A program made the translations under genes and the position numbers. From the IMG/VR virus record IMGVR_UViG_3300009008_000050, positions 1 to 52,950 of that record: a stretch of DNA of 52,950 bases; one strand, 5' to 3'. Below are positions 1,053 through 49,589 of the stretch, piece by piece; within the stretch, counting starts at the first letter, position 1, and the number at the start of each line of letters is the position of its first letter. The notes under the pieces are model-generated. The model ran no database searches, was not told the DNA's origin, and saw only the letters and a program-made list of their open reading frames with translations. Source of the stretch: a virus.

Positions 1053-1396
1053 TGAATATCACTCCAGGATACGAATATATCCGCCCAGAGCAAGAGATAA
1101 CAACGCCTTCTGGGGAGACCTACGTCATCCCGGCAGACACCATAAGCGCACCGGCTGACACTACTATGACCCACGGTATCATAAAAGGCGGGCCACGCGC
1201 ATACAATTGGGTAGGGGGAGGAGAGAGCGCTTGGGGTGACAATCTTTTTGAAGCTATGAGTACGATATTTGACCGCGGGAGAATGAGGCCCTTCTCGGGA
1301 ATGTATGATACAAACCGAAGGTTTCATGGTGAGCCAGAGGTATTGCCAGCCTTCCCATTTGGTGATTTGTTTGACCCTTATGGTAAGGAAAGGTAA
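1052..1396 (+). CDS. Small unrecognised protein
   Basis: A 114-residue protein without a family I recognise. It is rich in Gly, Pro and aromatic residues, with no signal peptide or membrane segment. It overlaps the gene before and the gene after by one base each (TAATG junctions), so it belongs to the same operon as the LysM protein and the polyvalent-type protein. A GGTGAG sequence before its ATG may serve as ribosome binding site. A structural or accessory virion role is a guess from position alone. Confidence 0.7.
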   Translation: MNITPGYEYIRPEQEITTPSGETYVIPADTISAPADTTMTHGIIKGGPRAYNWVGGGESAWGDNLFEAMSTIFDRGRMRPFSGMYDTNRRFHGEPEVLPAFPFGDLFDPYGKER

Positions 1397-3261
1397 TGCT
1401 CTCTCAATTACGTAAACTTGTCGCAGGCTCACCACCTCACCCAGAAAAGCCCGGTGTCTTCATTCACTACATCCCCCCGGAGGCTATAGAAGACGTAAAG
1501 CGCGAGGGGTTAAAGGGAGTCGGGCAGTTATACAAAGAAGACCCCGAAGCCTACCTGGAGCGTCTTAAAACATATGCTAGGTTTCAGGATAAAGAAAACC
1601 CAACGCCAGAAGAAATAATAGAGGGCATACGACGATTTAGAGAGCAACCTCATGGTGAGAATGCCATCTTTGGTTATCCACACATGGTTGACTTGGAAAA
1701 GAGCAAGCGGCTCAAAAAGTGGCTAAAGGGCAAAGTCCCCGTTAAAGTAAATGTAGAAGAGGCTATTCTTGCGGGCATTATAGAAGGCGTAGCAGACCTT
1801 AACGCCCCACCTGTGGATTATTCTAAAGTAAAAGACAAGGGTCCTGCTTTAATAGGCATCCCACACCCGATGTTAATACCCAGAACGGGCAGAAACCTTC
1901 CCGATTCGGGTAGAATCCCTTCTAGGTTTTTGGAAATAATGGAGGGCTTTGAGAAACAATCCATGCTTGATGGGATAAGGAAGGTTATGTACCATGGATC
2001 TCCTCGTTTATTAGAGGAGATTAGCCTTAGGGATGAACATGGAGACCCTGACGTCCCGCTTGTTGTATTCGGCACACCTTCGCGTAAGTTCGCTGAGGAG
2101 CTCCGAAAGCTCTATGGGGTCCTAGAGAAGACGGCGGCGTATTCAGAAGGAGGATCATTTACTCACGACGGAGCTCGCTATTCTCTTAGAGAGGCATTCC
2201 GTGTGGCGAACACCAAGCCTACCAGACAGGTACGGGTGGACGACCTCAAGTGGGTATTGGCGTACGACCGCCCAGACCCTAAGAGACTCCGGGCAGCCGA
2301 TCTATCTGCCCCGATACTCGTAGTGCCGGACAGGAGGGGTAGGCCTACAGCGGTGGACGGCCTACATAGACTCTCCAAGGCAGTACGAGAGGGAAGAAGG
2401 ACACTCCCTGCTAAGAAGCTCAGACTGTCTGAACTCACCAAGGTGGCGTCTAGGACATTCACCGACAACGACGTCACCTACGACGTAGAGAAGCTGTGGG
2501 GCACTGAAGGCAAGGTCAGAAGGGTCTCCCCGGACAGGCTCCTGCGAGCAACAGGTAGTACATGGGGGCACGGATCCGGGAAGTATGGCTGGAGGGATGT
2601 GCTGGCTGACCCCAAGAAGTACCCGGGGGAGACGGAGCGCATTAGAGATGCGGACCTTAGATACCCTCTTGCATACCTTGGGGAGAGGTGGGGGGATAGA
2701 GATATAAACCAGAACCTCCATTACTCAGATGACTCAAACGCCCCCGACAGAGAGAGTACCATAACTTTAAGAGAGATGCGCCCCAATGCCTTCGATAGAA
2801 TCTATAAGAACAAGGCCGGATACCTCTATCATCTAGATAGTGATGCCTTCCATGGAACTAATAGAGGCGGTGATGACTATTGGGAGCAAATATCAGAGAA
2901 GCCACTCACCCCTTTAAAGGTGGAAAAGATAGATAATGTTCTCCGCGCCTTAGAAGACGCTGGGGTTGAGATGCTTCCTTATGACAAAGATGAGACTATC
3001 AAAATCATAAAGAGTGAAAGTATTCGCAAGCGCTTGGCGGCGATGACCCCAAAGGCGAGGGCACAGTATATCAGATGGATGTCCGAAGGTGCCCCAGAAG
3101 AACTTCTCTCCACAATTAACTCGTTGAGGGAAATAGAAGAGAGATACGAAGAAAATCTCAAAAAGCAATCCATGTTAGGTGGGATAAGAAAGGTAGCGCA
3201 GTCTGGAAACGCAGACTATCGGGCAGGCGGAGCGAATGCACCCTGGGGAGACGGCTATTAA
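1396..3261 (+). CDS. Polyvalent-type multidomain protein (ART-like and ParB-like segments)
   Basis: A 621-residue mosaic. Residues about 195-240 start with YHGSP, followed by LLEEI and later a VVFGTPSRKFAEEL segment, resembling ADP-ribosyltransferase-like domains of phage polyvalent proteins. Residues about 245-350 contain VDDLKWVL, SAPILVV and VDGLHRLSKAV, the pattern of ParB/sulfiredoxin-like domains. A second, degenerate copy follows (FTDNDVTYD, then RIRDADLRYPLAYL, about 355-440) without the DGLHR motif. The near-identical segment KQSML-x-GIRKV occurs at residues 187-197 and 590-600 and seems to border modules. Proteins of this kind are often injected with phage DNA to act on the host; that role is inference. 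The ribosome binding site GGAAAGG is strong. The domain calls are moderate because sequence similarity is short. Confidence 0.55.
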   Translation: MLSQLRKLVAGSPPHPEKPGVFIHYIPPEAIEDVKREGLKGVGQLYKEDPEAYLERLKTYARFQDKENPTPEEIIEGIRRFREQPHGENAIFGYPHMVDLEKSKRLKKWLKGKVPVKVNVEEAILAGIIEGVADLNAPPVDYSKVKDKGPALIGIPHPMLIPRTGRNLPDSGRIPSRFLEIMEGFEKQSMLDGIRKVMYHGSPRLLEEISLRDEHGDPDVPLVVFGTPSRKFAEELRKLYGVLEKTAAYSEGGSFTHDGARYSLREAFRVANTKPTRQVRVDDLKWVLAYDRPDPKRLRAADLSAPILVVPDRRGRPTAVDGLHRLSKAVREGRRTLPAKKLRLSELTKVASRTFTDNDVTYDVEKLWGTEGKVRRVSPDRLLRATGSTWGHGSGKYGWRDVLADPKKYPGETERIRDADLRYPLAYLGERWGDRDINQNLHYSDDSNAPDRESTITLREMRPNAFDRIYKNKAGYLYHLDSDAFHGTNRGGDDYWEQISEKPLTPLKVEKIDNVLRALEDAGVEMLPYDKDETIKIIKSESIRKRLAAMTPKARAQYIRWMSEGAPEELLSTINSLREIEERYEENLKKQSMLGGIRKVAQSGNADYRAGGANAPWGDGY

Positions 3262-9300: not shown

Positions 9301-9587
9301 TGCCTGGGGATATCTTACCAACAGCGCAACTTGAACAGATGAATGCTAATATGAAAGAAGAGCAGGCAAGAATAAAATCACAGCCAATCTTTACGGGGAT
9401 GGATATGTTTACCCCCAAGGTTGAGCAGGACTGGGCAGTTAAAATGATGGGGCGTGATATGATAGGCCAGCTTAGAGAATCCGCAGCAACGGGAGCTCAG
9501 AGTTTTCTTCGCGGGCCGAAACCCGTTTTGCCATTTATCGCAGGCGTTGACTTCGGTAGTCGGATAGACGATTTAGGAGTTTACTAA
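3321..9587 (+). CDS. Single-chain multisubunit-type RNA polymerase, fused beta-beta'
   Basis: A 2088-residue fusion of the two catalytic halves of a cellular-type RNA polymerase, which copies DNA into RNA. Beta half (residues 1 to about 1000): PLLTGRGTYIVDG and RRQLRLLPGVY, then MPWKGLNFQDGLVIS, then DKLSGRHGQKGVV with the two active-centre lysines K824 and K832, then PARMNLGQILE. Beta' half (from about 1030): SIGGRAVIMVDPEL, LSRDPKLHKFN, the catalytic loop NADFDGDAM with D1427, D1429 and D1431, a bridge helix (LAESGAKGGWGNIKQM) and trigger loop (ATQLALRSFH, R1844 and H1847). All key residues are present, so it should be active. It is shorter than E. coli beta plus beta' (2749 residues) and lacks the Cys zinc sites; I see no cysteine anywhere. 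No alpha or omega gene is visible. The gene ends in TAATG shared with the first tagged virion protein. No strong ribosome binding site is visible. Confidence 0.95.
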   Translation: MNNSLSKDTVNKMLDKIDSVYVHKMGTELEKIGNPLGIWIGDQYQFDKKIAEDYISMLNLVRGYIENNFNVEGETRDLIIEDFKLDIPKDYPDYKGQIQAKHMNATWGIPIKVKFALKDKAGKSLDKSGWKTILNIPLLTGRGTYIVDGQEYAIRRQLRLLPGVYTAKTAEGVGTFINTSTRQNIKMSFSPDTLKFETNIGNRKFSLYPVLSALGVPDDVMRKTWGEKVFSANAERGAHLLESTVDRLYKTMYAYGEPTTSYPDKVQLILDAFEQSGLDEWSTKTTLGKPYDGVTPGMFIDTTKKMLGVSNGTLKSDRRDALYFRSLYGIDDMVGFALNKYQQKLDKKIRFRLDNLERDDINYIVSRPIAMVNKAVLQRFNQHDLAFLPIQANPLDDFNTLSEVTLMGEGGIGSEHSIPISSRALDDSNVGMLGPLQTPASSRVGANTHLTLGADKDGPDIMGMVAPIDSHEIYHASAREMYDLHIALPGEFKKVPSGWKANKSKVLAVYKGKIGKVPAGKIKYVIPNHSNMFTLSSNTIPFLNHDAPTRMSMGTSQMAHLVKLKNPQRSLVQNIIDYDGKKPITAEESYYKKMNIRSPLRGVVQRVEADNIVIKGTKDGKLHKVAYYNNFPLNTTRMMNTTPIVKKGDRIREGDVIAENGFSDRGQLATGLNLHIAYMPWKGLNFQDGLVISDTAAKNFTSLHTYQEEYSKHPKDVYNKSKFVAHYPNLYTNSQLSKMDADGIIKEGMQINKGDPLALKISPRKLTEDDILRGQISTVFRSPMARDEKTWEHENLGTVHKVVKGRDFIKVYVKTEEMLRRADKLSGRHGQKGVVVAVLPDDEMPRTQNGDIIDIIQNPAAVPARMNLGQILETSAGKLAHHTGKVYKVDNFRDNITPEILSKQLKDAGLSDQDMLYDAEGNEIGSVFTGRQHFFKLRQQAEKYFKARNQNDPYDIISHRPIKGPKMGPLGFYAMLAHGATKNLKEFAGFKSEHNDDWWRAYETGAALPRPQTTFAFDKLQTFLKGAGINVRQEKDSLRLLPLTDNDVDNLSSGEVQDPSRAVKIGDPNRKDFLKPIPGGLYDQKLFGGLMGEKWGHMNLAEPIPNPIFERPIQTLLDLTQGQYTRILDGRDGVLKGEIVEMTPETRPKAITGGPAIGELLSKIKVTSALKEQVDISKHTRGDKRDKAVRKIGYLNGLRLAGMKPQDYIISKIPVMPPQFRPVYMTERGDMRVSDLTAHYHDLGRVNNQMKDMRGLPTEVTANLRDDLYDTVKALQGIGDPNNYGRARGAAGILKFMKGKIPAKGHFQDKIFSKRQSIGGRAVIMVDPELSVDDVGVPEEMAWSIFKPFIMRRLTTAGIKPLDADKMIETRHPRASDALDAEMDYRPVILSRDPKLHKFNYLAFNGHRIKDDALHIPPLITKGFNADFDGDAMSVNVPIMPDAVQEAKSRMLASQNLIKYGKDTIIMAPENEAIAGLYAGTVIKDDKGIAYGSPGEALSAFHRGDIKLTDGIFVANKKTSPGRVMLNELLPADLRDHSKRWGNSDIRDMLNFVARNNSNEYVPIVQGIKDLGDFMGNKLALSFTLKDFFSMDNKDLSSISAKADKLVAISNRGEGDWTGDTSFMPADFDAKLDVKLKAHAKDSTLGMLAESGAKGGWGNIKQMIYSPVLMADVEGGIIPHVIKRGFAHGMDLGDYWTAAKGSRASIFASQLGVQDPGFFTKQLLRATLGGTIAPGDYNSGKGVDYPVDHPTVLNRYLAKNLRDKNGHLLAEANDLVTQELVEAAKKRGVEAMTVRSPLTSVASQGMYAKDFGRLPDGQKPRVGMDAGVIAAHTLTEPATQLALRSFHSAGAVGQNKNVKGLYSIWPLLNGRPPTGAKAVMATKPGTIEKIHGLKTGGSDITMDDGTVYKATPGLKLHVKSGDTVTKGQALQDGFMDPKEVLQYLGMPALQQYLVDQTEDNYGKNAPDRRYLETLVASLTKYSKVTDVGESSGLLPGDILPTAQLEQMNANMKEEQARIKSQPIFTGMDMFTPKVEQDWAVKMMGRDMIGQLRESAATGAQSFLRGPKPVLPFIAGVDFGSRIDDLGVY

Positions 9588-10027
9588 TGACAAAAACGGC
9601 GGCAATACATAATCTTGCACGAGAGGTCGTTAGGCGAGAGATGCATAAGTGTGCAAATACAAATTGGAACAAATGGCCAATCGGTCGCTGGGGTTATTTA
9701 GATTATTTAGATGACCCTACCTTTGATAATGCCGTGCGCGGCGGGTCAAGCCTTGGTGCGCCGATAGGTATCCTTGGGGGTGCAGTCGGAGGGACTGTGG
9801 CTGCCGGCCCGGCAGCGGGAGCTGCTCTCGCTCCGGTGTGGGGCGGCATAGGGGGATTGGTAGGCGGGGTTCTTGGTATGCTTGGGTACCACATAGGTGA
9901 TTGGCTTGCACCGAGCGAAGAAGACTATTATTCTGACGCATATAAAGATTTTCTTAACGAGGGCCCAGACGGGTCTTCGTATAGTTTAAAAAGCAGTGAT
10001 TTAGGCGCCCCAAGGGCGAGGAACTAA
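9587..10027 (+). CDS. Tagged small protein with glycine-zipper membrane segment
   Basis: A 146-residue protein. The N-terminus (residues 1-22, with VVRREMHKCA) is the most divergent member of an N-terminal sequence shared by six proteins of this cluster. Residues about 52-105 are Gly/Ala-rich and hydrophobic with repeated GG and GxxxG spacing, typical of glycine-zipper segments that pack in membranes. Its start overlaps the polymerase stop (TAATG) and has an AGGAG site seven bases upstream. I infer a virion protein that could enter the host envelope during DNA delivery, like internal head or pilot proteins; nothing in the sequence proves this. No enzymatic motif is present. Confidence 0.75.
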   Translation: MTKTAAIHNLAREVVRREMHKCANTNWNKWPIGRWGYLDYLDDPTFDNAVRGGSSLGAPIGILGGAVGGTVAAGPAAGAALAPVWGGIGGLVGGVLGMLGYHIGDWLAPSEEDYYSDAYKDFLNEGPDGSSYSLKSSDLGAPRARN

Positions 10028-10041
10028 AGAAGGAGAATAGC

Positions 10042-10281
10042 TTGACAAAAAAAGAATTAATAAAACTTGCCGCGGCTCAAGTAGTCAAAAGAGAGCTTGC
10101 AAAAAGCGCCGGAATAAGAGATGCCGTAGCAAGACGCAATGAAATATACGCTAATATGGGCATAATAGAAGCGCCCGCGGATAGCGCCGCGACAGACTCT
10201 CTCTGGGTAGAGCCGGGAGAAAATGCTGACTCTAGCCCATGGAGTTGGTTCACGGACCTTTTTAAAGGGTGGGGGTCATAG
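10042..10281 (+). CDS. Tagged small protein
   Basis: A 79-residue protein starting at TTG, chosen because AAGGAG lies seven bases upstream and because the product then begins with the shared tag (KELIKLAAAQVVKRELAKSA, then GI). The rest is short and acidic, ending in a Trp-rich amphipathic stretch (PWSWFTDLFKGWGS) that could sit at a membrane surface. No known domain. The tag makes up about a third of the protein, so its job may be mainly to be delivered or processed with its neighbours. The existence of the gene is supported by the ribosome binding site and the conserved N-terminus. Confidence 0.75.
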   Translation: MTKKELIKLAAAQVVKRELAKSAGIRDAVARRNEIYANMGIIEAPADSAATDSLWVEPGENADSSPWSWFTDLFKGWGS

Positions 10282-10286
10282 AGACA

Positions 10287-10700
10287 ATGAATAAAGAAAT
10301 TATAAAATTAGCCGCATCTATTATTGTGAGAAGAGATATGAATAAGACCTCGGGAATTTTTGATATCGATCTTGACTCTTTGGGCCTGTCTGAAGCGTGG
10401 CCCCAAATTAGCGAATTTTGGGAAAGAGCCCAGGGCTGGGAAGGTGGAGAGGAGCTTACGGATATCCCAGCTTCTTCTGACAATATAATTCCAGCAAATT
10501 TATCATGGATGTACAATAGGGTAAATGACGCTTACGGGGACTCTTCTGTTTTTGCTGACAGTGTAGATAAATATATACCAAACTTTTCTGAGGATTACCA
10601 GGACATAAATCTGTGGGACGCTGTTTCTCTTTTAAGAAATAAAGACGTACTAGGCAATTTGTTCTCGCTTGGGGCGCTTGGTGGTTCGGCCAGTGACTAA
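10287..10700 (+). CDS. Tagged small acidic protein
   Basis: A 137-residue protein. I start it at ATG 10287, not the in-frame GTG at 10269, because the product then begins MNKEIIKLAASIIVRRDMNK, matching the shared tag. The body is acidic with many Asp and Trp residues and no family I recognise. The ribosome binding site is poor (GGGGG about 12 bases upstream), and translation is probably coupled to the gene ending at 10281. The sequence SGIFD after the tag is also found in the M23 protein at 10844, so the two share a slightly longer start than the other members. Confidence 0.75.
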   Translation: MNKEIIKLAASIIVRRDMNKTSGIFDIDLDSLGLSEAWPQISEFWERAQGWEGGEELTDIPASSDNIIPANLSWMYNRVNDAYGDSSVFADSVDKYIPNFSEDYQDINLWDAVSLLRNKDVLGNLFSLGALGGSASD

Positions 10701-10729
10701 ATATAGAGAAGTATATTAAGGAGAATAAA

Positions 10730-10840
10730 GTGAACAAACAAGCGGCTTTCGTCGGGTCTTATAGGGCGGGACAGCATAGCGGTAGCCCGGTAGATGCCCC
10801 TTCACAGACCCCTGCTCTCCCAAAGATGCCTTGGCGTTAA
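10730..10840 (+). CDS. 36-residue small protein
   Basis: A short frame starting at GTG with a strong AAGGAG site six bases upstream and ending in TAA three bases before the ATG of the M23 gene. It fills the gap between two tagged genes exactly. The peptide begins MNKQAAFVGSYRAG and is rich in Gly, Ser, Pro and Ala, with no predicted helix after the first residues. Its MNK start resembles the tagged neighbours, but the IKLAAA core is absent. Support comes from the ribosome binding site and tight packing; I cannot suggest a function. Confidence 0.6.
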   Translation: MNKQAAFVGSYRAGQHSGSPVDAPSQTPALPKMPWR

Positions 10841-10843
10841 TCT

Positions 10844-11647
10844 ATGAACAAAGAGTTTGCCAAACTTGCCGCAGCCGCGATTGTCAGAAACGAACTCTCT
10901 AAATCGAGCGGTATCTTTGACTGGTTTACGAACAACCCAAGTGATTATTATAGCCCTGCCTATGTTGAAAGCTTATTAAATGCAAATGTAGAATCTATGG
11001 ATGGCCTCGGATTACACGCGGGCGAATGGGCTAATCATTATGCAGGATTAGAACAGAAACGTGAAGACCTCCGACCGCGGAGTTATTCTGAGCTGGTCTT
11101 TGGGGAAGGAAACGAAGACGAGTATTCCCTTGGTAGCCCTCATGGCCATAGGCCTCGCCTCCTTATTGAATATGCTTGGGACGAAGAGACCCAGAGCGAT
11201 ATGCCTATATATGGATCATCAGAACACAGGGGGCAGGATTACAGGGCGGGCGTCGGTACTCAATTGTACGCACCCTTTGGTGGGGAGATTACTTCTAGCC
11301 ACCACGATACTGGTGGTGGGGGTAACTTAAGTTTCCTAAGCCCCTTTTATCCTGATGGCAGCCCTAGTGATTTGGCATTTAGCGCAATGCACTTAGCCGA
11401 GCCTACTGGTTATGAAAGAGGGGACGTTGTTGAACCTAGCGACCCTTGGGGCCTAGTCGGGTCAACAGGAAGGTCTAGCGGCCCGCATCTACATGCCGGC
11501 GCTAAGGTTGGCGATGCTTCGGTACATCCAGCTTTTTTAACAAGAAAACTAGATAGACTTTTTGACAAATACGAAGAAATGGGAAGGTATTCCCCATTTA
11601 CAGAAGAAGATTTCGTCAGCGATGACGATTATCTATACTTAAACTAG
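10844..11647 (+). CDS. Tagged M23-family (LytM-type) peptidoglycan endopeptidase
   Basis: A 267-residue protein. Residues 1-22 are the shared tag (FAKLAAAAIVRNELSKSS). Residues about 120-230 form an M23 metallopeptidase: HRGQDYRA supplies His128 and Asp132, MHL gives His183, and the closing STGRSSGPHLH gives His215 and His217. These match the H-x3-D and HxH zinc-site pattern of LytM. The family cuts peptide crosslinks in peptidoglycan. There is no signal peptide, and the gene sits among virion-type genes, so I infer a structural lysin carried in the particle that opens the wall during DNA entry. The tag linking it to small unknown proteins is the best clue that the set is virion cargo. A C-terminal acidic tail follows the catalytic domain. 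Confidence 0.88.
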   Translation: MNKEFAKLAAAAIVRNELSKSSGIFDWFTNNPSDYYSPAYVESLLNANVESMDGLGLHAGEWANHYAGLEQKREDLRPRSYSELVFGEGNEDEYSLGSPHGHRPRLLIEYAWDEETQSDMPIYGSSEHRGQDYRAGVGTQLYAPFGGEITSSHHDTGGGGNLSFLSPFYPDGSPSDLAFSAMHLAEPTGYERGDVVEPSDPWGLVGSTGRSSGPHLHAGAKVGDASVHPAFLTRKLDRLFDKYEEMGRYSPFTEEDFVSDDDYLYLN

Positions 11648-11655
11648 GAGATATT

Positions 11656-12300
11656 ATGGGAAGCGTAAAAAGATTTATAAAACAGGCACAGCAACAGATA
11701 CAGCTCCCTCCCCCTCAATATCTAGAATACCCGATGCCTACTCGCCCCCGCGATCGGTGGGAGGAAGAAGCCCCCCCCTTGTCACCGGAAGAGAAGGAAG
11801 AGTCTCCTTATCAAGACCCATGGGTAGAACCCGAGAAGACAAGTTCGTTTACAACAACCCCAGGGCTAGATGTTTTTCTCCCTATATTAAGCGAGATGAT
11901 GGATAGGGCTAACGTTCCAACGATAGGAAACACTAACGTTTACGAGCCCGAAGCGATAAAGTCTATATATAACCTTCTTGCTCCTGGTATTTTAGAAGAC
12001 GAAGGGGTGCAACGAGATTGGATTAATCTCTACAACGCGTACGCCCCCGGGGAAGAAGAGCCTACCTTTGCGGATTCTCTTGAGAACATCTGGCCGGATC
12101 TCAATGTGTTTGATTATTATGGAATAAGCCCGGAGAGTAGATATGCTATTAACGAATATGTGGGCGACCAATTTCAAGCGATTCCTCCCGGCGCGCCAGA
12201 AGAAGCCGTAATAGAAATAGACGACGATTCGGACACGGGGGATGCGGTTATAGAAAAAGGTGGATCTTTCCTTAAACAATTACGTCGGCTAAAGAAGTAA
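11656..12300 (+). CDS. Proline-rich acidic protein with MGSVKR start
   Basis: A 214-residue protein with a clear AGGAG site. It begins MGSVKRFIKQAQQQIQ, which matches the start of the repeat protein at 13858 (MGSVKRMI) and not the KLAAA tag of the other neighbours. Residues about 17-60 are Pro/Glu-rich and probably disordered. The middle is acidic and unrecognised, and the C-terminus is a basic stretch (FLKQLRRLKK) after an Asp-rich segment. No catalytic motif. Position suggests a virion-associated role. Confidence 0.7.
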   Translation: MGSVKRFIKQAQQQIQLPPPQYLEYPMPTRPRDRWEEEAPPLSPEEKEESPYQDPWVEPEKTSSFTTTPGLDVFLPILSEMMDRANVPTIGNTNVYEPEAIKSIYNLLAPGILEDEGVQRDWINLYNAYAPGEEEPTFADSLENIWPDLNVFDYYGISPESRYAINEYVGDQFQAIPPGAPEEAVIEIDDDSDTGDAVIEKGGSFLKQLRRLKK

Positions 12301-12301
12301 T

Positions 12302-12329
12302 TTGCATATTATTTGCAAACGCGTATTAT
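12302..12329 (+). promoter_or_regulatory. Putative sigma70-like promoter before 12359
   Basis: TTGCAT (12302-12307), a 16-base spacer, then TATTAT (12324-12329), 30 bases before the ATG. The -35 overlaps an inverted repeat TTTGCA / TGCAAA (12301-12306 and 12314-12319). The -10 is imperfect. The intergenic gap of 58 bases is one of few in this dense region, which supports a control site. Confidence 0.45.
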
Positions 12330-12358
12330 ATAGTTAGGAAAACCATTTAAGGAGAATT

Positions 12359-13075
12359 ATGGAAAGAAAAGAAATAATAAAGCTTGCGGCAGCCTTGGTT
12401 ATAAAAGCCGCTCAATCTGCGGCCGACGATCCCGATTCGGGCGCGGGGACGTATGAAGCGGATATAGCTCAATTAGAAGAAGAAATCATTCAGATAGGAA
12501 ATAGTCAACAGGAAGATGCTAACCTCGCTGCGACCCGAAGGGCTTTAGAGAATGCGACCATACTTCAAGAAGAAATAGATGCCGAGAAAGCAAGAATAGC
12601 CGCGGAAGAGGCTGCACGGCAGGCGTGGGAGGATGAAACTTTTTCTTCCCCAGAATACTACGCTCTTCAGCAAGAAGCCCTAGACCATACGCGTAATACC
12701 ATGAACCAAGAGTACGCAGTCCCTAGCGTTATGGATATTATAAACCAAAACGTCAAGGGGGGTGATTGGGACACACAGAGTGGATTGGAATCCATTGGTG
12801 AATGGGCAGGAACGGTAGGCTTACCAGTAGCAGCAGCGGCACTAATAGCAACGTTGCCAGGATTAGGTGGAACGTATACCCTAGGCAGCCACTTAGGGGC
12901 AATGCCAGCACTTAGTAGTATAAACGCGGGTCTCCTCGGCGCCGGCGGAAATCTCACCGGAATCGGTAAGGGTATAGGTTGGTTATGGGGCGAAGGTGGC
13001 CCTGACCTGTGGCATGGTAATTATATAGACTACGCCGACATACAAGGTTGGCTTGACAAAGAAGATTTATTATAA
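12359..13075 (+). CDS. Tagged protein with coiled coil and hydrophobic segment
   Basis: A 238-residue protein that starts with the shared tag (KEIIKLAAALVIK) but lacks the E-M-x-K end of it. Residues about 30-100 are Glu/Gln/Ala-rich with heptad spacing, a likely coiled coil. Residues about 145-205 are hydrophobic and Gly/Ala-rich (VAAAALIATLPGLGG and similar), enough for one or two membrane passes. This layout resembles ejected pore-forming internal proteins, though I cannot assign it to a family. It has its own putative promoter and an AAGGAG site, so it may head a sub-operon. Confidence 0.72.
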   Translation: MERKEIIKLAAALVIKAAQSAADDPDSGAGTYEADIAQLEEEIIQIGNSQQEDANLAATRRALENATILQEEIDAEKARIAAEEAARQAWEDETFSSPEYYALQQEALDHTRNTMNQEYAVPSVMDIINQNVKGGDWDTQSGLESIGEWAGTVGLPVAAAALIATLPGLGGTYTLGSHLGAMPALSSINAGLLGAGGNLTGIGKGIGWLWGEGGPDLWHGNYIDYADIQGWLDKEDLL

Positions 13076-13092
13076 TAACGAAAGGACACGAA

Positions 13093-13824
13093 ATGACAAG
13101 AAAAGGATTCATAAAACTCGCAGCCGCACAAATAGTGAGGAACGAGATGTGGAAGCGTGCGCAGGTAGACCCAAGAACCCAGCCCCCCGTGGAAAATAGG
13201 ACAGCTCATCCCTATTTTATTCCAGACCCGGGTGGCCTCGGCTGGGAGGGATCCGAGGAGCAAAACGCGAGAATCGGTGCAAAGAAAGAGGAGCTTGATG
13301 CAATCGCAGCAGGCGAAGCCGCTGCAGCTAGAGACGCGCGGGGTATTGTTGAAGAGGCAAGAGGTCACATGGCAAGACGTGCTAGAGGTAAAGCCGAAGA
13401 ACAGCGCAACTCTCTTGCTGATCTAATCGCTGGGAAAGGTAACGCCCCTCTCGGCATGCCGTATCCGGAGCTTGTCCAAAGATTCGAGAGCGCCCAGCCT
13501 ATGGCCCCCATTTACGCCGCTGCCGGCCGTGGAGACATATCTCACCCCGGTACGAGCTTTAGTAATAGCCTTAACACCGTATCTCGCGATCTAATAGAAA
13601 ACATCTACGGCTCTAATTTTTATGACCAAGGCTTCTTAGAAACCTTTGGCGAAACGGCTACCATTCCTATAAGCGGGCTTGCGAAGTTGATAGGCACGGC
13701 TCCCTATCAGATAAGCGATGCCGCTTCCAATGTTTGGGACGCTACTAAAGAATTCGGTTCCAATGCTTGGGACGCTACTAAAGAATTCGGTTCCAATGCT
13801 TGGGACGCTATAACTGGTTATTAG
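13093..13824 (+). CDS. Tagged protein with 11-residue C-terminal repeats
   Basis: A 243-residue protein. The N-terminus is the fullest version of the shared tag (GFIKLAAAQIVRNEMWKRAQ). Residues about 50-105 are Ala/Arg/Glu-rich and probably helical. The C-terminus ends in tandem 11-residue units, SN-x-WDATKEFG, two full copies and one partial. Eleven-residue periodic repeats often form amphipathic helices that lie on membranes. No enzyme motif. The AAAGGA site six bases upstream is good. With its neighbours it forms the cluster of presumed virion cargo. Confidence 0.72.
   Translation: MTRKGFIKLAAAQIVRNEMWKRAQVDPRTQPPVENRTAHPYFIPDPGGLGWEGSEEQNARIGAKKEELDAIAAGEAAAARDARGIVEEARGHMARRARGKAEEQRNSLADLIAGKGNAPLGMPYPELVQRFESAQPMAPIYAAAGRGDISHPGTSFSNSLNTVSRDLIENIYGSNFYDQGFLETFGETATIPISGLAKLIGTAPYQISDAASNVWDATKEFGSNAWDATKEFGSNAWDAITGY
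13725..13811 (+). repeat. 33-bp tandem repeat within the 13093 gene
   Basis: About 2.6 copies of a 33-base unit (for example TTGGGACGCTACTAAAGAAT and the following 13 bases), nearly identical between copies, encoding the 11-residue unit SN-x-WDATKEFG. The length is a multiple of three and the copies stay in frame, so it is a protein repeat. Confidence 0.9.
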
Positions 13825-13857
13825 AAATAACTATAAACATAAGAAAGGACGCTAACA

Positions 13858-14532
13858 ATGGGTAGTGTTAAAAGAATGATTGGCAACGGCATGAGAAAGC
13901 AAGCTTCACAGCAGATGCAAAAACGTGCCTATGCTAACGAAATGTACAAAAGAGCCTATGCTAACGAAATGTACAAAAGAGCATATGCTAACGAAATGTA
14001 CAAAAGAGCATATGCTAACGAAATGTACAAAAGAGCATATGTAGGAGAAATGCAGAAGCGTGCACATCTCAACGGACTCTACAAACGCGCATATGTGAAT
14101 AAAATGCAGAAGCTGGGTATGCCGGCTTCTATAATGAGGCTTCTTGGGAAACAAGCTCCGAAGGCAAAGGTTCTCCCAAAGATCCTTAAGTCTCTTGCTG
14201 CGGCTGCAGGCATCGGTGGGCTTGGTTATGCTGGATACAAAAACCAAGACGAAATATCCGACGTCCTCTCTGGGTTATTTGGTGACTCGCCACCTAGGAA
14301 AAAACCCTTTGTGCCAGATCCAGATAGACCCCCCCACCATATATCAGGAAACCCTGAGGGCGTGCGTCCAGTCAGACCAGGCGGCCCGCCTCCCTTCAGC
14401 GCTATGCCTCCGATCGTTGGAGAAGAATCAGACATAGAGGGAATACGCGCACAAATTGTGAAGTACTTAGAGAATAATAACGAGAGTCTCACGCAGGACG
14501 AAATTGATGCTCTGAAAGAGTACGGCTTTTAA
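13858..14532 (+). CDS. Protein with seven tandem 9-residue RAYANEMYK repeats
   Basis: A 224-residue protein. It begins MGSVKRMI like the 11656 product. Residues 23-85 are seven 9-residue units: RAYANEMYK four times, then RAYVGEMQK, RAHLNGLYK and RAYVNKMQK. The core NEMxKRA equals the end of the shared tag in neighbouring proteins (RNEMWKRA at 13093, RREMHKCA at 9587), so the repeat looks like an amplified version of it. Residues about 103-125 are hydrophobic (LKSLAAAAGIGGLGYAGY). Residues about 140-190 are Pro-rich and probably disordered, and the end is acidic. No known domain. The AAAGGA site is good. It could be a scaffold or adaptor that displays many copies of one recognition motif; this is inference. 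Confidence 0.75.
   Translation: MGSVKRMIGNGMRKQASQQMQKRAYANEMYKRAYANEMYKRAYANEMYKRAYANEMYKRAYVGEMQKRAHLNGLYKRAYVNKMQKLGMPASIMRLLGKQAPKAKVLPKILKSLAAAAGIGGLGYAGYKNQDEISDVLSGLFGDSPPRKKPFVPDPDRPPHHISGNPEGVRPVRPGGPPPFSAMPPIVGEESDIEGIRAQIVKYLENNNESLTQDEIDALKEYGF
13924..14112 (+). repeat. 27-bp tandem repeat, seven units
   Basis: Seven in-frame 27-base units. The first four are nearly identical at DNA level (unit starts GCATATGCTAACGAAATGTA), while the last three have diverged. The gradient suggests recent expansion at the 5' side. There are no spacers between units, so this is not a CRISPR array. Confidence 0.95.
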
Positions 14533-23447: not shown

Positions 23448-24153
23448 AGAACTAAAACAACACCAACAGGACCTGTGGTCTAGTTGGAGCGTTTCTAAGG
23501 ACGATACACACATGTCTAGTCTCTTAGACTCTCTACAGCCCCTCATAAAGAGCCGTATAACGAAGTTTGTGCGCGGGCCTATACCATATAGCGTATTATT
23601 GGGTCAGGCTAATCTACTGGCGCGTGACGCGCTCGAGAAGTACGACCCCGAGAAGGCGCAGCTTACCACATATCTAGTGCACCAGCTCCGCCCAATGGAG
23701 AGGTTCGTGTCTCAAAATCAAAATATTAAATACGTCCCCGAGCACGTTTCTATGGAGTTTGGTCGATATGAGAATACGCTCCGCACCCTCGAGAACTCTC
23801 TTGGTAGGCACCCTACTCATGAAGAGATTGCAAAAGAGATGGAGGTTACTCAGCGAACCGTATCTCTTATTGAGAAGGGAATCGCCCCTGAGCAGATTGC
23901 GTCGTCAGTACCTGGAGAGATGGGCGACGAGTTGCAATTCTCTGAAGAAATTTCCTCTCGACAGGGTGACCTCGCTGCTTATTTGAGAGCGGAACTAGGC
24001 GGGAATCAACTGAAAGCGTTCGACATGATTTCGGGTCGGAAAGGAAAGGCTAAGAGCCCACAGGAGATAGCAGAAAAACTTAAAGTCGAAGTGGGGGACG
24101 TCTATAATTGGAGACGACAATGGACCGATCGGCTGAAAGAAGTTGAAAATTGA
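23437..24153 (+). CDS. Sigma-factor-like protein within the baseplate operon
   Basis: A 238-residue protein laid out like a sigma70-family factor. DALEKYDPEKAQLTTYLV resembles region 2 (compare FDPERG-x-FSTYA). ENSLGRHPTHEEIAKEM with the following helix resembles region 3. SPQEIAEKLKVEVGDVYNWR resembles the helix-turn-helix of region 4. Region 2 is weaker than in true sigma factors, and the promoter-melting aromatic residues are not clear. Its gene overlaps the hub gene by 11 bases and the next gene by four, so it is expressed with late structural genes. It could guide the phage polymerase to late promoters, be packaged with the polymerase, or have been recruited to a structural role. Family call good, function open. 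Confidence 0.72.
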   Translation: MANEELKQHQQDLWSSWSVSKDDTHMSSLLDSLQPLIKSRITKFVRGPIPYSVLLGQANLLARDALEKYDPEKAQLTTYLVHQLRPMERFVSQNQNIKYVPEHVSMEFGRYENTLRTLENSLGRHPTHEEIAKEMEVTQRTVSLIEKGIAPEQIASSVPGEMGDELQFSEEISSRQGDLAAYLRAELGGNQLKAFDMISGRKGKAKSPQEIAEKLKVEVGDVYNWRRQWTDRLKEVEN

Positions 24154-44339: not shown

Positions 44340-45508
44340 AAGGCATACGCTTTTTAAAGGCTAACCCCAAAGTCATAATGAAATCGCAATTCGATCTCGT
44401 AGGGGAACATCTTTGGTTTCCCGACTTCCTTAAAAGCGCGCTAGTCAATAACATAGCGCACAAACACCCCGATCAATTAGTGGATTTAGAAGTAATTGAG
44501 CCCACTGTCCCTCGCTATAATGGCGAAGAATTACACGGAAAGCATCTTGGCGTAGCTCGCACGGGTGGCGCCGGGGACATTATAATGATAGGCGCATCCC
44601 TGCAAAAGCTTAAGAAACTCTACCCAACCTGCGAGATCACCTTCATGACAGACGCTAAATACGCTCAGGTAGCCGAAGCTGTTACCGCCGTCGATGGCGT
44701 TGCCACATATCCCGTAAGAGAAGAAGTACACACTACCTTCGATTACTGGACAGACTTCGTTGGGTCGATAGAAGCGCCCTCTTGGGATGCGCGTAATATA
44801 CACGGAATTGATTTATTTGCAGGCCTAATGAGTGTTAAACTCAACGACGACGAGAAGTTACCACATCTTTCGGTACCCTTCGAGGCGCAGAAAAGAGCAG
44901 ACGCTCGTTTAAAGTCAATAGGCTGCGAAGGCAAGAATCTCATTGCTGTGCAATTCAGAGCAACTAACGTGAATCGCTGTTTTGATCAAGAAAAGATGAT
45001 TAACATAATCGCCGGACTTGCTGCTAAAACAGAAGATGCACACATTATAATCATGGGCGGAAAGCGTACCGTGATGGATAAAGACAATAATAAAACAAAA
45101 GAAAGAGATTGCCCTATAGACTTTTTCACAAACATAGGTGGAAAAAAGATGAAGCACCCTCAGATCCACAATCTAACCGGGCAGACGGACTGGCTTGAGT
45201 CAATGGCGATTCTCTCAAAATGCAAACTTGCACTTGGTCCAGACAGCAGTATAGTACATATTGCAGGGAGCATGAAAATACCCTGCTTGGGTATTTACGG
45301 TCCCTTCCCAGCCAGGATTAGGACGACGTACTACCCGGAATGCGAGACTATTGAGTCAAATTACAAATGCGCGCCATGTTTCTCACATGGATCGATGCCT
45401 TGTTCTCATATGGATCGCAAAAGAATGGTAGCCCCCTGCTGGGAGGAAATAACTGCTGATATGATAATCGATAAGGCTCAATCAATGTATACGAAAGGAC
45501 AAACATGA
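44336..45508 (+). CDS. Glycosyltransferase family 9 (heptosyltransferase-like)
   Basis: A 390-residue GT-B protein. Residues about 75-100 carry VARTGGAGDIIMIGASLQKL, matching the N-terminal loop of ADP-heptose transferases, and residues about 300-330 carry LGPDSSIVHIAGSMKIPCLG with the later GPFPARIRTTYY, matching the nucleotide-sugar site. Bacterial family members build lipopolysaccharide core. In a phage it may modify the virion or the host surface. A Cys/His-rich stretch near the end (CAPCFSHGSMPCSHMD) could bind a metal, as in some family members. It has normal genome composition, unlike the AT-rich sugar genes upstream. Confidence 0.85.
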   Translation: MKGIRFLKANPKVIMKSQFDLVGEHLWFPDFLKSALVNNIAHKHPDQLVDLEVIEPTVPRYNGEELHGKHLGVARTGGAGDIIMIGASLQKLKKLYPTCEITFMTDAKYAQVAEAVTAVDGVATYPVREEVHTTFDYWTDFVGSIEAPSWDARNIHGIDLFAGLMSVKLNDDEKLPHLSVPFEAQKRADARLKSIGCEGKNLIAVQFRATNVNRCFDQEKMINIIAGLAAKTEDAHIIIMGGKRTVMDKDNNKTKERDCPIDFFTNIGGKKMKHPQIHNLTGQTDWLESMAILSKCKLALGPDSSIVHIAGSMKIPCLGIYGPFPARIRTTYYPECETIESNYKCAPCFSHGSMPCSHMDRKRMVAPCWEEITADMIIDKAQSMYTKGQT

Positions 45509-46629
45509 ACGTAAGAGGAATTATCCTGGATGCGTATGACATGCTTAGTGCGAAGCAGATCTCGTCGGAAGACATGCAAAAAGTGGCGCTGGACCACAAA
45601 GAAAGTGTACACACACAAGAGGACATCTACCGCCAAATAGATCGTGACTTCGGTCTTATTCTTGTCTTTAAAAACGGCGACAAATTGAGGAAGTTCCCTC
45701 TTAATTCAAAAACAAACGTGACTTTCAGCATGAATGCTTTCAAGAAGAATAAGCATAAGCTGCCCGATGCTGCGAAAAGAATGACAGCCGTACGCATAGT
45801 TGCCGCTTGTGAGCGTTATGCTATGGATTGTGATGAAGATATTAAGGCAATTGCCAAGGGCGCAATTGACGACGGTAATTATTATCATGTAAGCGAAGAT
45901 ATGATGAATATGCTTAGCGGGCTTGCTGATATAAAAGACGAGAAAAAGACAGATGACGCAACCGCGCCGAACGAGGTTAAAGAAGCCGAATGGGGCATAA
46001 ACGAGACTATTAATGGCGTCTCTGTGCGCAAGTTTCCTCTTCGTACCCAAGAACAGGTAGAGAAGGCGCTAGGAAGATTCCCGAAGACAGCTTCTAGGCT
46101 TCTTGCTAAATATGCATTCAACCTTGCTGATAATATAAAGAAGAAGGCTGAGATACTTAACGTAGTCGTCCCCAAGGATTCGCTAGTTAATCAGTATACG
46201 AGCGATGCATATTCTCCGCTTTTCAAAATGGCTATGCGGGCTAGGATTGCTTATTCAAATGCTAAGAAGAGTAGCCCGGGCCCGTATATGTCATTGCTTG
46301 CAAAGACATCTAATCTCGCCCCAAGAGATGCTGCTGTAATTCTCGAAGGCATCGATATGGACCAGGCGTTTCATCACCGCTATGGCACATCTTTCCCAAG
46401 CGCAGTTAATAGCGTAATGGACAAGACGGCTAAAGAATTTAGCACGGGCGATGCTATGGTTGACATGAGCCGCCTGAGAGAAGCCATCGTCAATCATAGA
46501 CATGTATTCGAAGAGCATTTTGAGAAAGATCTGCTTGACGGCCTCGAAAGAAATACCGACACCGTATTTAAATCCCTCCCCGCGCCGGTAAGGCAGCTCA
46601 TTGGTAGGATTCTTAATACGCTGTCATGA
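45505..46629 (+). CDS. Unrecognised protein with internal duplication
   Basis: A 374-residue protein. Two segments, about 65-115 and about 175-220, share the pattern RKFPL, then a Val, then a helical stretch with AAKRM-x-AVRIV and TASRLLAKYAF, suggesting a duplicated helical domain. The same layout occurs in phage proteins of unknown function encoded near heads or portals. The stretch between them is Asp/Lys-rich. It begins inside the GT9 stop (ATGA), with AAAGGA upstream. It lies two genes before the portal, so a head-assembly role is possible, but not shown. Confidence 0.68.
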   Translation: MNVRGIILDAYDMLSAKQISSEDMQKVALDHKESVHTQEDIYRQIDRDFGLILVFKNGDKLRKFPLNSKTNVTFSMNAFKKNKHKLPDAAKRMTAVRIVAACERYAMDCDEDIKAIAKGAIDDGNYYHVSEDMMNMLSGLADIKDEKKTDDATAPNEVKEAEWGINETINGVSVRKFPLRTQEQVEKALGRFPKTASRLLAKYAFNLADNIKKKAEILNVVVPKDSLVNQYTSDAYSPLFKMAMRARIAYSNAKKSSPGPYMSLLAKTSNLAPRDAAVILEGIDMDQAFHHRYGTSFPSAVNSVMDKTAKEFSTGDAMVDMSRLREAIVNHRHVFEEHFEKDLLDGLERNTDTVFKSLPAPVRQLIGRILNTLS

Positions 46630-47249
46630 AAAGTATTTTAACCCTATTAGTTAATACCGAAAGCACGCCTGCACAGCTCCTCGCTGCAATGAATGAAGCG
46701 TTTGGCGAGGGTTGGCTTAAGTGGGAGCCGGCAACGATTAGGGCTGAATTAGAAGATATTGGCTTTGATTTTAACACGCTTCCCAGGGGTTCGTGGGACA
46801 AACTAATGGCAACCAAGGCTGCCTTTATGAACAACGCCCCCTGGAAGGACTGGACGGCTTTTCTCACCTTCGCACAGGCGATGAATAATTACCAGGTAGA
46901 CTTTAATGTCGCCAGGGTATGCTCGCCGGCGGAGGCTGCGTGGACAGTTGAGTGCTTAAAGCTAATTCGCCCCGACGAGAAGTTTTCTCGCGAGGTGCAG
47001 GCGATGATAGGGTCAATTTTTCTTAGCAATGGTATTGTAGTTCCCCCGGCGGGATTAGAGCTCGTTAAAGATGAGATGAAAGAAATGCAAGACAAGACAA
47101 TGGCTATGGATGAATTTACAAAAATAGCTGAAGAGCGTTATACTCTACATAGAAGTCAGAGCACCGCGCCCGAGGGCGACTCTGCATTAGATATACACAC
47201 AACGAAACTCTTAGCAATAGATGAATATATAAGGAGCAAGAATGGCTGA
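46626..47249 (+). CDS. Unrecognised protein upstream of the portal
   Basis: A 207-residue helical protein. It starts inside the previous stop (ATGA) and its 3' end overlaps the portal start by eight bases. It has no membrane segment, and I see no family motif. The segment EPATIRAELEDIGFDFNTLP and several Trp residues in the first half are typical of small phage head-region proteins. A portal partner or packaging-related role is plausible by position only. Confidence 0.68.
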   Translation: MKSILTLLVNTESTPAQLLAAMNEAFGEGWLKWEPATIRAELEDIGFDFNTLPRGSWDKLMATKAAFMNNAPWKDWTAFLTFAQAMNNYQVDFNVARVCSPAEAAWTVECLKLIRPDEKFSREVQAMIGSIFLSNGIVVPPAGLELVKDEMKEMQDKTMAMDEFTKIAEERYTLHRSQSTAPEGDSALDIHTTKLLAIDEYIRSKNG

Positions 47250-49305
47250 TGGCAGTAATTTTGAGACTAGTACCAATTATAATCTAATCGCATCCGGGGA
47301 CAATCCCTTTCTTGACATTAGCCAACTTTACTTCCCTCGCAATATAAAAGACGCCTTCCCGCTTGCGCGTACTATATTCTATACCAATGGTTTAGTACGG
47401 CAGGCTATAAAAAAATTAGCAGAGTATTCAATTACCGACCTTGAGTTTATCGCCCCCGAAGAAGGCTCTGGCATGCGCAAGGAAGAAATACAAAATGTAT
47501 ACAAGCGTATATTCTCGAAGCAATTAGATATAAAGAAATTCCTTATCTCTGTCGGACTCGATTACTTCGTATACGGCAACGCCTTCGTGTCGATCTACTT
47601 CCCATTTAAAAGAATGCTTACCTGCAAGAGTTGTGAAGAACAGATGCCGCTTTCGCTAAACGAGATTGCAGACTGGGAATACACTGATAAGGGTTATCGT
47701 GGCACCTGCCCGCGTTGTAAGAAAAAGGTAGAGTTTACCGCACAGGATAAAACTATACAGCAAGAAGACAGAATGCGTCTTATTCGCTGGAATCCCGAGA
47801 ACATCGACATAGAATATTATCCCTTTAGCGGCGAGAGAATCTATACATACGATCCCCCTGAAGAGATTCGCGCCAAGATACTAGGTGGCGACAAAGAGGC
47901 TATACTTCGCACGCCTACGCTTATTCTCAATGTAATCAAAGACGATAAAGTAGTAAAACTCAACCCACACGATCTCTTTCACTTCGTTGCGGAAAGCCCG
48001 ACTGATGAACAACAGGCCTGGGGTAAGGCTTTAATTATATGTGCGTTTAAAAACATTTTCTACGCATCCGTACTGCGTAAGGGCGCTGAGGCAATTGCGC
48101 TCGATCACATTATCCCCCTTCGAGTGCTTTTCCCACAGATCACGGGCTCTGAGGGCTTCCACTCGACTAGCGTAAGGCTTAGCAAAATAGAAAGCAAGCT
48201 GCGCTATGAGTTCACCGAGTGGAGGAAAGATAAAAACCGTGTTATCATTTCTCCTTTCCCCATGGGTATGCAATTCCTGGGCGGCCAAGGGCGTGGTCTT
48301 CTCCCCACGCCAGAGATTCAACAGGCGACTGAAGAAATCTTCCTTTCTCTAGGCTTACCCCAGGGATTGCTCATGGGTAGCGCACCGTGGGCTGCCAATA
48401 GCATCGCGATGCGTATTGTAGAGAATGCCTTCCTTACATATCGCAATCAATTACAGACAATTCTCGACTTCGTAAAAGACAGACTTAGAGACTACCTAGA
48501 CCTCCCTGACTGTACCGTACGGATGAAAGAATTTAAAATGATGGACGACGTACAATATAAGCAGCTTATGATGGGCCTTGCACAGGGTAGATTGATTTCT
48601 AAGCGTAGATTGCTTGAGATGTTTAACATCGATTACGAAGAGGAAATGGGCATTGTGCGCGACGAAATGAAAGATGAATCCATCTTCCAGGCAGAAGCAC
48701 AGGGCGAGATGATTAAAATCCAAGCCGGTATGCAGGATGAAATACAGGCATCACAGTCAGCGTCTATGATGGAACAGCAGAGCTCGCAAATGGAAGAGGT
48801 GGCTGAAAACTTCCTCTCAATTACGCAAAAATTCATTGACTCAGGCTGGCCTATGGATCAAGCTATTGGTATTGTTAATAACGTTATGCAACAGCAGATG
48901 TATATGCAAATGCAGCAGGCCGAGAAAGCCAAGGCAGACCAGGCAAGAGCCCTCTTTATGCAGGATCGTATGGCGTCTACCGGATGGAGCCTTGCAAGGG
49001 CACAGAGGCAGCTTAAGATGTTCGATGTTATGGATCAGTTTAACCCCGCGCCGACCCCGCAACAGTTCCAGGACGAAGGGCAATATGTTAATAGCCTCGT
49101 AAGTTATCTAATGCAACTCCCTGGCGACCAACGAGAAGCTCAGCTAAATAGTATTAAGAATAAAGACATCGCCTTCTTCGAACGCCTCGTAAATTACCTC
49201 AATGGTATGGGGATGAATGTAGGCGCACAGGATGGCGGAGGAACGAATAATAATATTAATCCATTACCGCAGGATAATGCACCCAGACGACAAGGATATA
49301 AATGA
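47242..49305 (+). CDS. Portal protein with zinc-ribbon insertion
   Basis: A 687-residue portal candidate. The portal is the ring at one capsid vertex through which DNA is packed and released. The early part (DAFPLARTIFYTNGLVRQAI and YFVYGNAFVSIYFPF), the middle (LTYRNQLQTILDFV) and a Met/Gln-rich C-terminal region of about 150 residues fit phage portals. Residues 128-159 hold a zinc ribbon: C128-x2-C131 and C156-x2-C159 (CKSC, CPRC), unusual in this family. The C-terminus is rich in Gln, Met and Asn and is probably a flexible or helical barrel end. Capsid and terminase genes must lie outside the window. Confidence 0.75.
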   Translation: MADGSNFETSTNYNLIASGDNPFLDISQLYFPRNIKDAFPLARTIFYTNGLVRQAIKKLAEYSITDLEFIAPEEGSGMRKEEIQNVYKRIFSKQLDIKKFLISVGLDYFVYGNAFVSIYFPFKRMLTCKSCEEQMPLSLNEIADWEYTDKGYRGTCPRCKKKVEFTAQDKTIQQEDRMRLIRWNPENIDIEYYPFSGERIYTYDPPEEIRAKILGGDKEAILRTPTLILNVIKDDKVVKLNPHDLFHFVAESPTDEQQAWGKALIICAFKNIFYASVLRKGAEAIALDHIIPLRVLFPQITGSEGFHSTSVRLSKIESKLRYEFTEWRKDKNRVIISPFPMGMQFLGGQGRGLLPTPEIQQATEEIFLSLGLPQGLLMGSAPWAANSIAMRIVENAFLTYRNQLQTILDFVKDRLRDYLDLPDCTVRMKEFKMMDDVQYKQLMMGLAQGRLISKRRLLEMFNIDYEEEMGIVRDEMKDESIFQAEAQGEMIKIQAGMQDEIQASQSASMMEQQSSQMEEVAENFLSITQKFIDSGWPMDQAIGIVNNVMQQQMYMQMQQAEKAKADQARALFMQDRMASTGWSLARAQRQLKMFDVMDQFNPAPTPQQFQDEGQYVNSLVSYLMQLPGDQREAQLNSIKNKDIAFFERLVNYLNGMGMNVGAQDGGGTNNNINPLPQDNAPRRQGYK

Positions 49306-49589
49306 AAGGTAACGCTGTAATTGGGATGAGTGTACCTACGGAAAAGCCTGACAACGTTAGGCTAACTAGACACTGTAAGCTTATTAATCTAACTGCCGAT
49401 GTTAATGGCGCGATGTATGAAGCTGCCGTTAATGAGCTTAGTGATAATGTAGATATACTCATAACTGATAAGGAGCTGCACTGGTCCGACGAGGGCGACT
49501 GTTCCCTTGTTATTTTCTATGAAAGGTATGAAGAAACGCCAGAGAAATCACCTAAGGCGCCTAAGGCAATGCAAAGTGCCATCCGCTGA
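49302..49589 (+). CDS. Small unrecognised protein after the portal
   Basis: A 95-residue protein starting inside the portal stop (ATGA), with a beta-rich body (VNGAMYEAAVNELSDNVDIL, then SDEGDCSLVIFYERYEE) and a Lys/Pro-rich end. No family recognised. Its end overlaps the probable start of the sigma factor gene, which would couple sigma production to the portal operon. Confidence 0.62.
   Translation: MKGNAVIGMSVPTEKPDNVRLTRHCKLINLTADVNGAMYEAAVNELSDNVDILITDKELHWSDEGDCSLVIFYERYEETPEKSPKAPKAMQSAIR

Follow-up and report, generated by a model that had tools for sequence, protein, structure and literature searches.

A Phi-x-K-x-A motif at the N-termini of eight consecutive phage proteins, a probable head-protease propeptide in a large clade of phages carrying RNA polymerase

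In phage T4, the internal proteins carry a 10-residue capsid targeting sequence (CTS) with adjoining residues for targeting and for cleavage, and with L/I-x-E at its end (PMC9026906). The propeptides of phage SPN3US are 20 and 24 residues long and contain several copies each of an A-x-E motif, and its protease cleaves itself (PMC10052503). The motifs reported for the prohead proteases of large phages (T4, phiKZ and SPN3US) end in Glu without exception. The DNA analyzed here is a linear fragment of 52,950 bases (IMG/VR virus record IMGVR_UViG_3300009008_000050; hereafter the window), which encodes a fused beta-beta' RNA polymerase (RNAP), a tail module, glycosyltransferases, a portal protein, a sigma factor, and eight consecutive open reading frames (ORFs; 9587-14532, each named by its first position) with an N-terminal tag built on the motif Phi-x-K-x-A, where Phi is L, I, M or F. 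We consider it probable that this is the motif of the capsid protease, and that the eight ORFs carry a removable propeptide which would load their products into the head.

An earlier note on this DNA had described a common N-terminus in six of these ORFs (9587, 10042, 10287, 10844, 12359 and 13093); all six are present at the coordinates it gave and share that N-terminus. Residues 2-31 of the six products have a mean pairwise BLOSUM62 local score of 46.7, compared to 15.7 (maximum 21.1 in 1000 draws) for six random other N-termini of the window and 16.3 (maximum 18.9) for shuffles of the tags themselves. The similarity ends past the tag, with residues 41-70 of the same proteins scoring 18.3; what is shared is a short N-terminal block on otherwise unrelated proteins, as in propeptides of the T4 type. 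The M23 peptidase domain that the note had seen in the product of ORF 10844 was also found (PF01551; E value 1.3e-9). The 23-residue pattern in which the note summarized the shared start reduces essentially to two copies of Phi-x-K-x-A placed 13 residues apart (e.g., eLIKLAaaqvvkreLAKSAg), and the set is larger than six, since it includes ORFs 11656 and 13858. The motif is located within the first 44 residues in 8/8 of these ORFs, versus 2/35 other genes of the window (hypergeometric p about 3e-7, by our own arithmetic), and one of those two is the multi-copy gene 45505 (Table 1).

When the tags are compared with one another, divergence is saturated at synonymous sites (pS 0.76) but not at non-synonymous ones (pN 0.41), which indicates that the tags are old and have been maintained by selection. 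The earlier note had allowed that a recent duplication of one leader, devoid of function, might account for the similarity. The N-termini are indeed adjacent and paralogous, and ORF 13858 holds recent 27-bp tandem copies, but the saturated synonymous divergence, with the amino acids kept, and the recurrence of the core motif in about 80 phages at 30% identity make such an origin scarcely credible, and it was rejected on the former ground. The individual tags vary in how strictly the motif is kept. In ORF 9587 the initiator Met forms the first copy (MTKTA), while in ORFs 10287 and 10844 the second copy is degenerate (K-x-S). The copies in ORF 13858 include MRKQA, MQKRA and four of NEMYKRA, the last four being a near-perfect 27-bp tandem repeat (YANEMYKRA) at 13930-14041. 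A second recent expansion, a 33-bp tandem repeat with 98% match at 13725-13810, encodes the C-terminal SNAWDATKEFG repeats of ORF 13093.

A query built by aligning the RNAP to two distant RNAPs from other phages recovered 80 IMG/VR loci at about 30% identity; single-protein IMG/VR searches with the RNAP and with the M23 protein revealed no close relative. All 400 patterns of the form Phi-x-X-x-Y were counted in 1196 proteins of the relatives, without fixing the answer beforehand. Phi-x-K-x-A ranks first of the 400, with 1417 occurrences versus 596 expected (z 33.6; the runner-up has z 14), while the near variants are flat, at 0.95x with Arg for Lys and 1.06x with Ser for Ala. The residue following the motif Ala is enriched in A, S or E. 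Bacterial control proteins processed in the same way, taken from rpoBC loci in a scan of genome contigs, gave 0.95x and rank 242/400; that scan returned mostly bacterial rpoBC and identified no host. In mycobacteriophage Pleione, which encodes a distant homologue of the protease described below but is outside of the clade, the motif was found 7 times versus 5.0 expected. Two records filed under Staphylococcus and Enterococcus phages (OR844998 and OR846602) were dropped as contamination, with ordinary bacterial genes around rpoB/rpoC.

The enrichment depends on the position in the protein and on the type of gene. It amounts to 4.9x at residues 16-30, versus about 2.1x inside proteins. The extended form GF-x3-Phi-x-K-x-A was seen 20 times versus 2.0 expected, often near the N-terminus, and individual phages have separate tag dialects around the core, such as GF-x-D-E-L-x-K-x-A. 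Salmonella phage Arash, whose genome is complete, shows an 8-fold enrichment of the motif across its head cluster (30 versus 3.7 expected), compared to 1.4x for the tail and 0.9x for the minus strand; tail, fibre, portal-RNAP and early regions are all near or below expectation. The residual class of other Arash genes reaches 2.4x, mainly through Gp242, a virion-detected protein with eight copies. Motif-bearing head proteins have been detected in Arash virions (PMC10585845). It might be argued that the tags are helices, amphipathic and active on membranes, of ejection proteins which form a conduit through the host envelope, their similarity being a consequence of helix physics. The tag is rich in Lys, Ala and Leu, and among the ORFs are several with glycine-zipper segments and one for a peptidoglycan hydrolase. 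However, the composition-keeping shuffles and the K-to-R control indicate that both the order and the identity of the residues matter, and the motif is present also in the capsid protein and the protease, which are not membrane-inserting, so that we regard this explanation as distinctly unlikely.

The evidence on the protease and the capsid protein comes from the genes of relatives. Arash gp222 matches phrog_18299, a family of head maturation proteases, and gp226 matches phrog_2522, a family of major head proteins. Homologues of gp222 and gp226 were recovered from 20/35 relative records, in which the protease gene matches phrog_18299 with E values of 2e-6 to 9e-10 and the capsid gene lies a few kb downstream. 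K-x-A is present at the N-terminal edge of the protease domain in all 25 aligned proteases, and Phi-x-K-x-A is found 16-20 residues past FFDIS, at the C-terminal edge of the domain, in 20/25, in addition to two sequences without FFDIS. Residues K30/A32 and L216/K218/A220 are invariant in eight phages whose proteases are 27-55% identical to the first. In an AlphaFold model of one protease (L087), confidence is confined to residues 32-224, i.e., between the sites at 29-33 and 217-221. Two residues about 50 positions apart, H96 and S148 in the Arash numbering, are invariant in 14 protease sequences, suggestive of a catalytic role; a His and a Ser at such a spacing are characteristic of prohead proteases of the herpesvirus type, which are serine proteases. 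A fold search with the protease in BFVD gave 126 matches at E<=0.001, many of them named prohead protease; a PDB sequence search gave nothing significant. In the major capsid proteins, K-x-A occurs at residue 23-29 in 18/18, one of which was scored after correction of an over-long start call. The motif of the tags is thus also found at the propeptide boundary of both proteins in the relatives. Two protease genes (L124:5246-8587 and L133:4325-10420) are broken by large insertions of 1113 and 2031 aa, which are possibly inteins or inserted domains.

The position of these sites bears on another explanation, in which the motif would be a docking site for the scaffold or core, or for some other head protein, and would target its bearer to the prohead without being cleaved. 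Multivalent binding would suit ORF 13858 and the family of the 45505 protein, with its 3-10 copies at shifting positions, and a docking site would also agree with the listing of some Arash head proteins at 100% coverage, which is considered below. On the other hand, the motif coincides precisely with the two ends of the folded protease domain and occupies the propeptide position in the capsid protein, where autoproteolysis and propeptide removal take place in T4 and SPN3US, and the strict demand for K rather than R, and for A rather than S, suits a protease subsite. We consider uncleaved docking to be rather unlikely.

Under the propeptide reading, Phi-x-K-x-A would be the recognition and cleavage motif of the prohead protease in a large clade of RNAP-carrying tailed phages, and its one to nine N-terminal copies on the eight ORFs would constitute a short removable propeptide. 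The propeptide would take the protein into the core of the prohead while the head assembles, and the protease would cut at the motif during head maturation. The freed hydrolase, glycine-zipper and coiled-coil proteins would remain packaged, and would probably be ejected along with the DNA. Because the window phage is kin to the relatives, with homologous RNAP, portal, 45505, 46626 and sigma-like proteins, we infer that it possesses the same protease and capsid protein. As to the scissile bond, we slightly prefer a cut after Ala (P1 Ala, with P1' often Ala or Ser), because the residue following Ala also appears to be selected; a cut after Lys, which would mirror L/I-x-E, is the less favored alternative. 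The herpesvirus assemblins likewise have Ala at P1 and Ala or Ser at P1'. The earlier note's proposal of a T4-like head-targeting and processing signal ending in K-x-(A/S) is thus borne out in so far as the core motif, in the relatives, brackets the protease domain, lies at residues 23-29 of the capsid protein and occurs mainly in head genes, while its cleavage is presumptive.

Several observations weigh against the propeptide reading. Cleavage, head targeting, ejection and presence in virions are, for the window proteins, all deduced from sequence. No protease or capsid gene is present on the 52.9-kb fragment, a PDB fold search with the protease gave no significant match, and no homologues of the eight ORFs were found elsewhere, only the core motif recurring in relatives. 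The RNAP, which lacks a clear copy of the motif, must reach the head by another route, and the tag leaves its packaging unexplained. Finally, the Arash virion table gives 100% coverage for the motif-rich head proteins Gp221, Gp223 and Gp224 (PMC10585845), which sits badly with full removal of a propeptide. The same table gives 100% coverage also for proteins with two unique peptides (PMC10585845), and its coverages look unreliable; the point nonetheless counts.

The earlier note had suggested that such a tag would define a set of ejected proteins accompanying the polymerase. The data give no support to a tag specific to that set, the motif being a general one of head proteins, or to a tag marking the RNAP itself. 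The window RNAP has only a weak LEKIG at residues 29-33, and any N-terminal copy of the motif is found in only 8/76 RNAPs, that of the window included. In Arash, the RNAP beta subunit accounts for the most spectra of any virion protein (PMC10585845). A sigma-70-like protein is encoded within the tail module of the window at 23437-24153 (+) (Sigma70_r3; E value 9e-9) and shares 33% identity across 141 aa with Arash Gp10, for which 467 spectra were recorded in Arash virions (PMC10585845). It is probably a virion-borne sigma factor serving the injected polymerase. A second sigma factor is located at 49507.

Because the eight ORFs are located directly upstream of the tail genes, they might themselves be tail genes, encoding, e.g., a tail-tip hydrolase and tape-measure accessories, with the motif incidental. 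The M23 and 13093 proteins match tape-measure PHROGs weakly, which would agree with this. Genuine tail genes are, however, unenriched in the motif, with 3 copies versus 3.7 expected in the window and the low Arash value given above, in contrast to its presence in all eight ORFs; the head and cargo genes of the window contain 35 copies versus 7.2 expected. We judge a tail origin to be very unlikely.

The features of the window are collected in Table 1.

Table 1. Tags of the eight ORFs and other features of the window
Feature	Coordinates	Strand	Sequence or remarks
Tag of ORF 9587-10027 (146 aa, glycine-zipper protein)	9587..9655	+	MTKTAAIHNLAREVVRREMHKCA; two Phi-x-K-x-A copies
Tag of ORF 10042-10281 (79 aa, TTG start)	10042..10110	+	MTKKELIKLAAAQVVKRELAKSA; two copies
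Tag of ORF 10287-10700 (137 aa)	10287..10352	+	MNKEIIKLAASIIVRRDMNKTS; one strict copy and one with Ser
Tag of ORF 10844-11647 (267 aa, M23 peptidase domain at residues 127-229)	10844..10909	+	MNKEFAKLAAAAIVRNELSKSS
Single motif copy of ORF 11656-12300 (214 aa)	11656..11688	+	MGSVKRFIKQA; absent from the earlier note's list
Tag of ORF 12359-13075 (238 aa)	12359..12388	+	MERKEIIKLA; second copy degenerate or lost
Tag of ORF 13093-13824 (243 aa)	13093..13161	+	MTRKGFIKLAAAQIVRNEMWKRA; two copies
N-terminal third of ORF 13858-14532 (224 aa)	13858..14121	+	nine strict motif copies
Fused beta-beta' multisubunit-type RNAP, 2088 aa	3321..9587	+	PHROG and Pfam matches; adjoins the tagged ORFs on their upstream side
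621-aa multi-segment protein	1396..3261	+	strict motif copies at residues 243, 347 and 597
374-aa protein, two genes upstream of the portal gene	45505..46629	+	seven motif copies versus 0.8 expected
Portal protein	47242..49305	+	homologous to portals of relatives and to Arash portal Gp204

The portal and RNAP genes are widely separated in the window, unlike in Arash, D69 and many relatives, where the former is located just upstream of the latter. Eight homologues of the 45505 protein in the relatives have 3-10 motif copies per protein, versus 0.3-0.8 expected; the number of copies is maintained among them while the positions drift. In the 621-aa protein, LEKTA, LTKVA and IRKVA lie between segments, one of which has a weak match to DUF6886, and the product may be further cargo, or a precursor from which several cargo proteins are cut. 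A single-sequence structure model of the M23 protein was unusable (pLDDT 32).

Taken together, we propose that the products form an ejected kit which would cross the envelope and accompany the polymerase, consisting of the 10844 hydrolase, the glycine-zipper proteins of ORFs 9587 and 12359, and the coiled-coil or repeat proteins of ORFs 13093 and 13858. More speculatively, and with considerable reserve, the motif might be a cargo code throughout the clade: the protease would both mature the loaded proteins and cut multi-domain precursors (ORFs 1396 and 13858) into separate injected proteins, and gain of Phi-x-K-x-A would turn a protein into head cargo. If so, the sequence by itself would tell which proteins many uncultured RNAP-encoding phages load as cargo. 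The eight proteins named here, among them a cell-wall hydrolase, are probably injected together with the polymerase. A large, mostly uncultured clade carrying its own RNAP has a Lys/Ala motif in a fixed place, at the boundaries of the protease and the capsid protein; this offers both a sequence rule for spotting head cargo and an inexpensive way to test protein sorting into heads. In the open-access literature searched, no K-x-A prohead motif was found, subscription papers being outside the coverage, and to our knowledge a lysine/alanine version of the head-loading mark has not been described.

Among known systems, Salmonella phage Arash and the Vibrio phages D69, D148 and D181 share with the window a homologous RNAP (29-31% identity), the portal and the sigma-like protein of the tail module, and have the motif in the head cluster, the protease and the capsid protein. 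The RNAP is present in Arash virions, and the motif was not described by the authors of that study (PMC10585845). Unlike the window, these phages have the RNAP split in two genes and yielded no homologues of the eight ORFs. For DarB of phage P1, 30 N-terminal residues are enough for loading a reporter into the head (PMC9024508), which is comparable, although the Dar N-termini have neither a consensus nor a defined cleavage motif. Closer in kind are phiKZ (gp175) and SPN3US (gp245), large phages with a virion RNA polymerase, a self-cleaving protease, and propeptides of 20-24 residues and longer that hold several motif copies (PMC10052503); they differ in the motif itself (S/A-x-E or A-x-E) and in the RNAP architecture, and no N-terminal block shared by cargo proteins has been reported for them. 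The T4 CTS, found on IPI-III and Alt and cut by gp21, is like the tag in being a short N-terminal propeptide with the protease motif inside, carried by unrelated head cargo; in both, a hydrophobic residue stands two before the charged one, and the protease itself bears the motif (PMC9026906). T4, however, uses L/I-x-E, cut after Glu; the motif of the window tag is Phi-x-K-x-A, of which a tag usually has two copies and at most nine. Because of this motif the tag falls outside the T4 CTS family, though it would work like a member of it.

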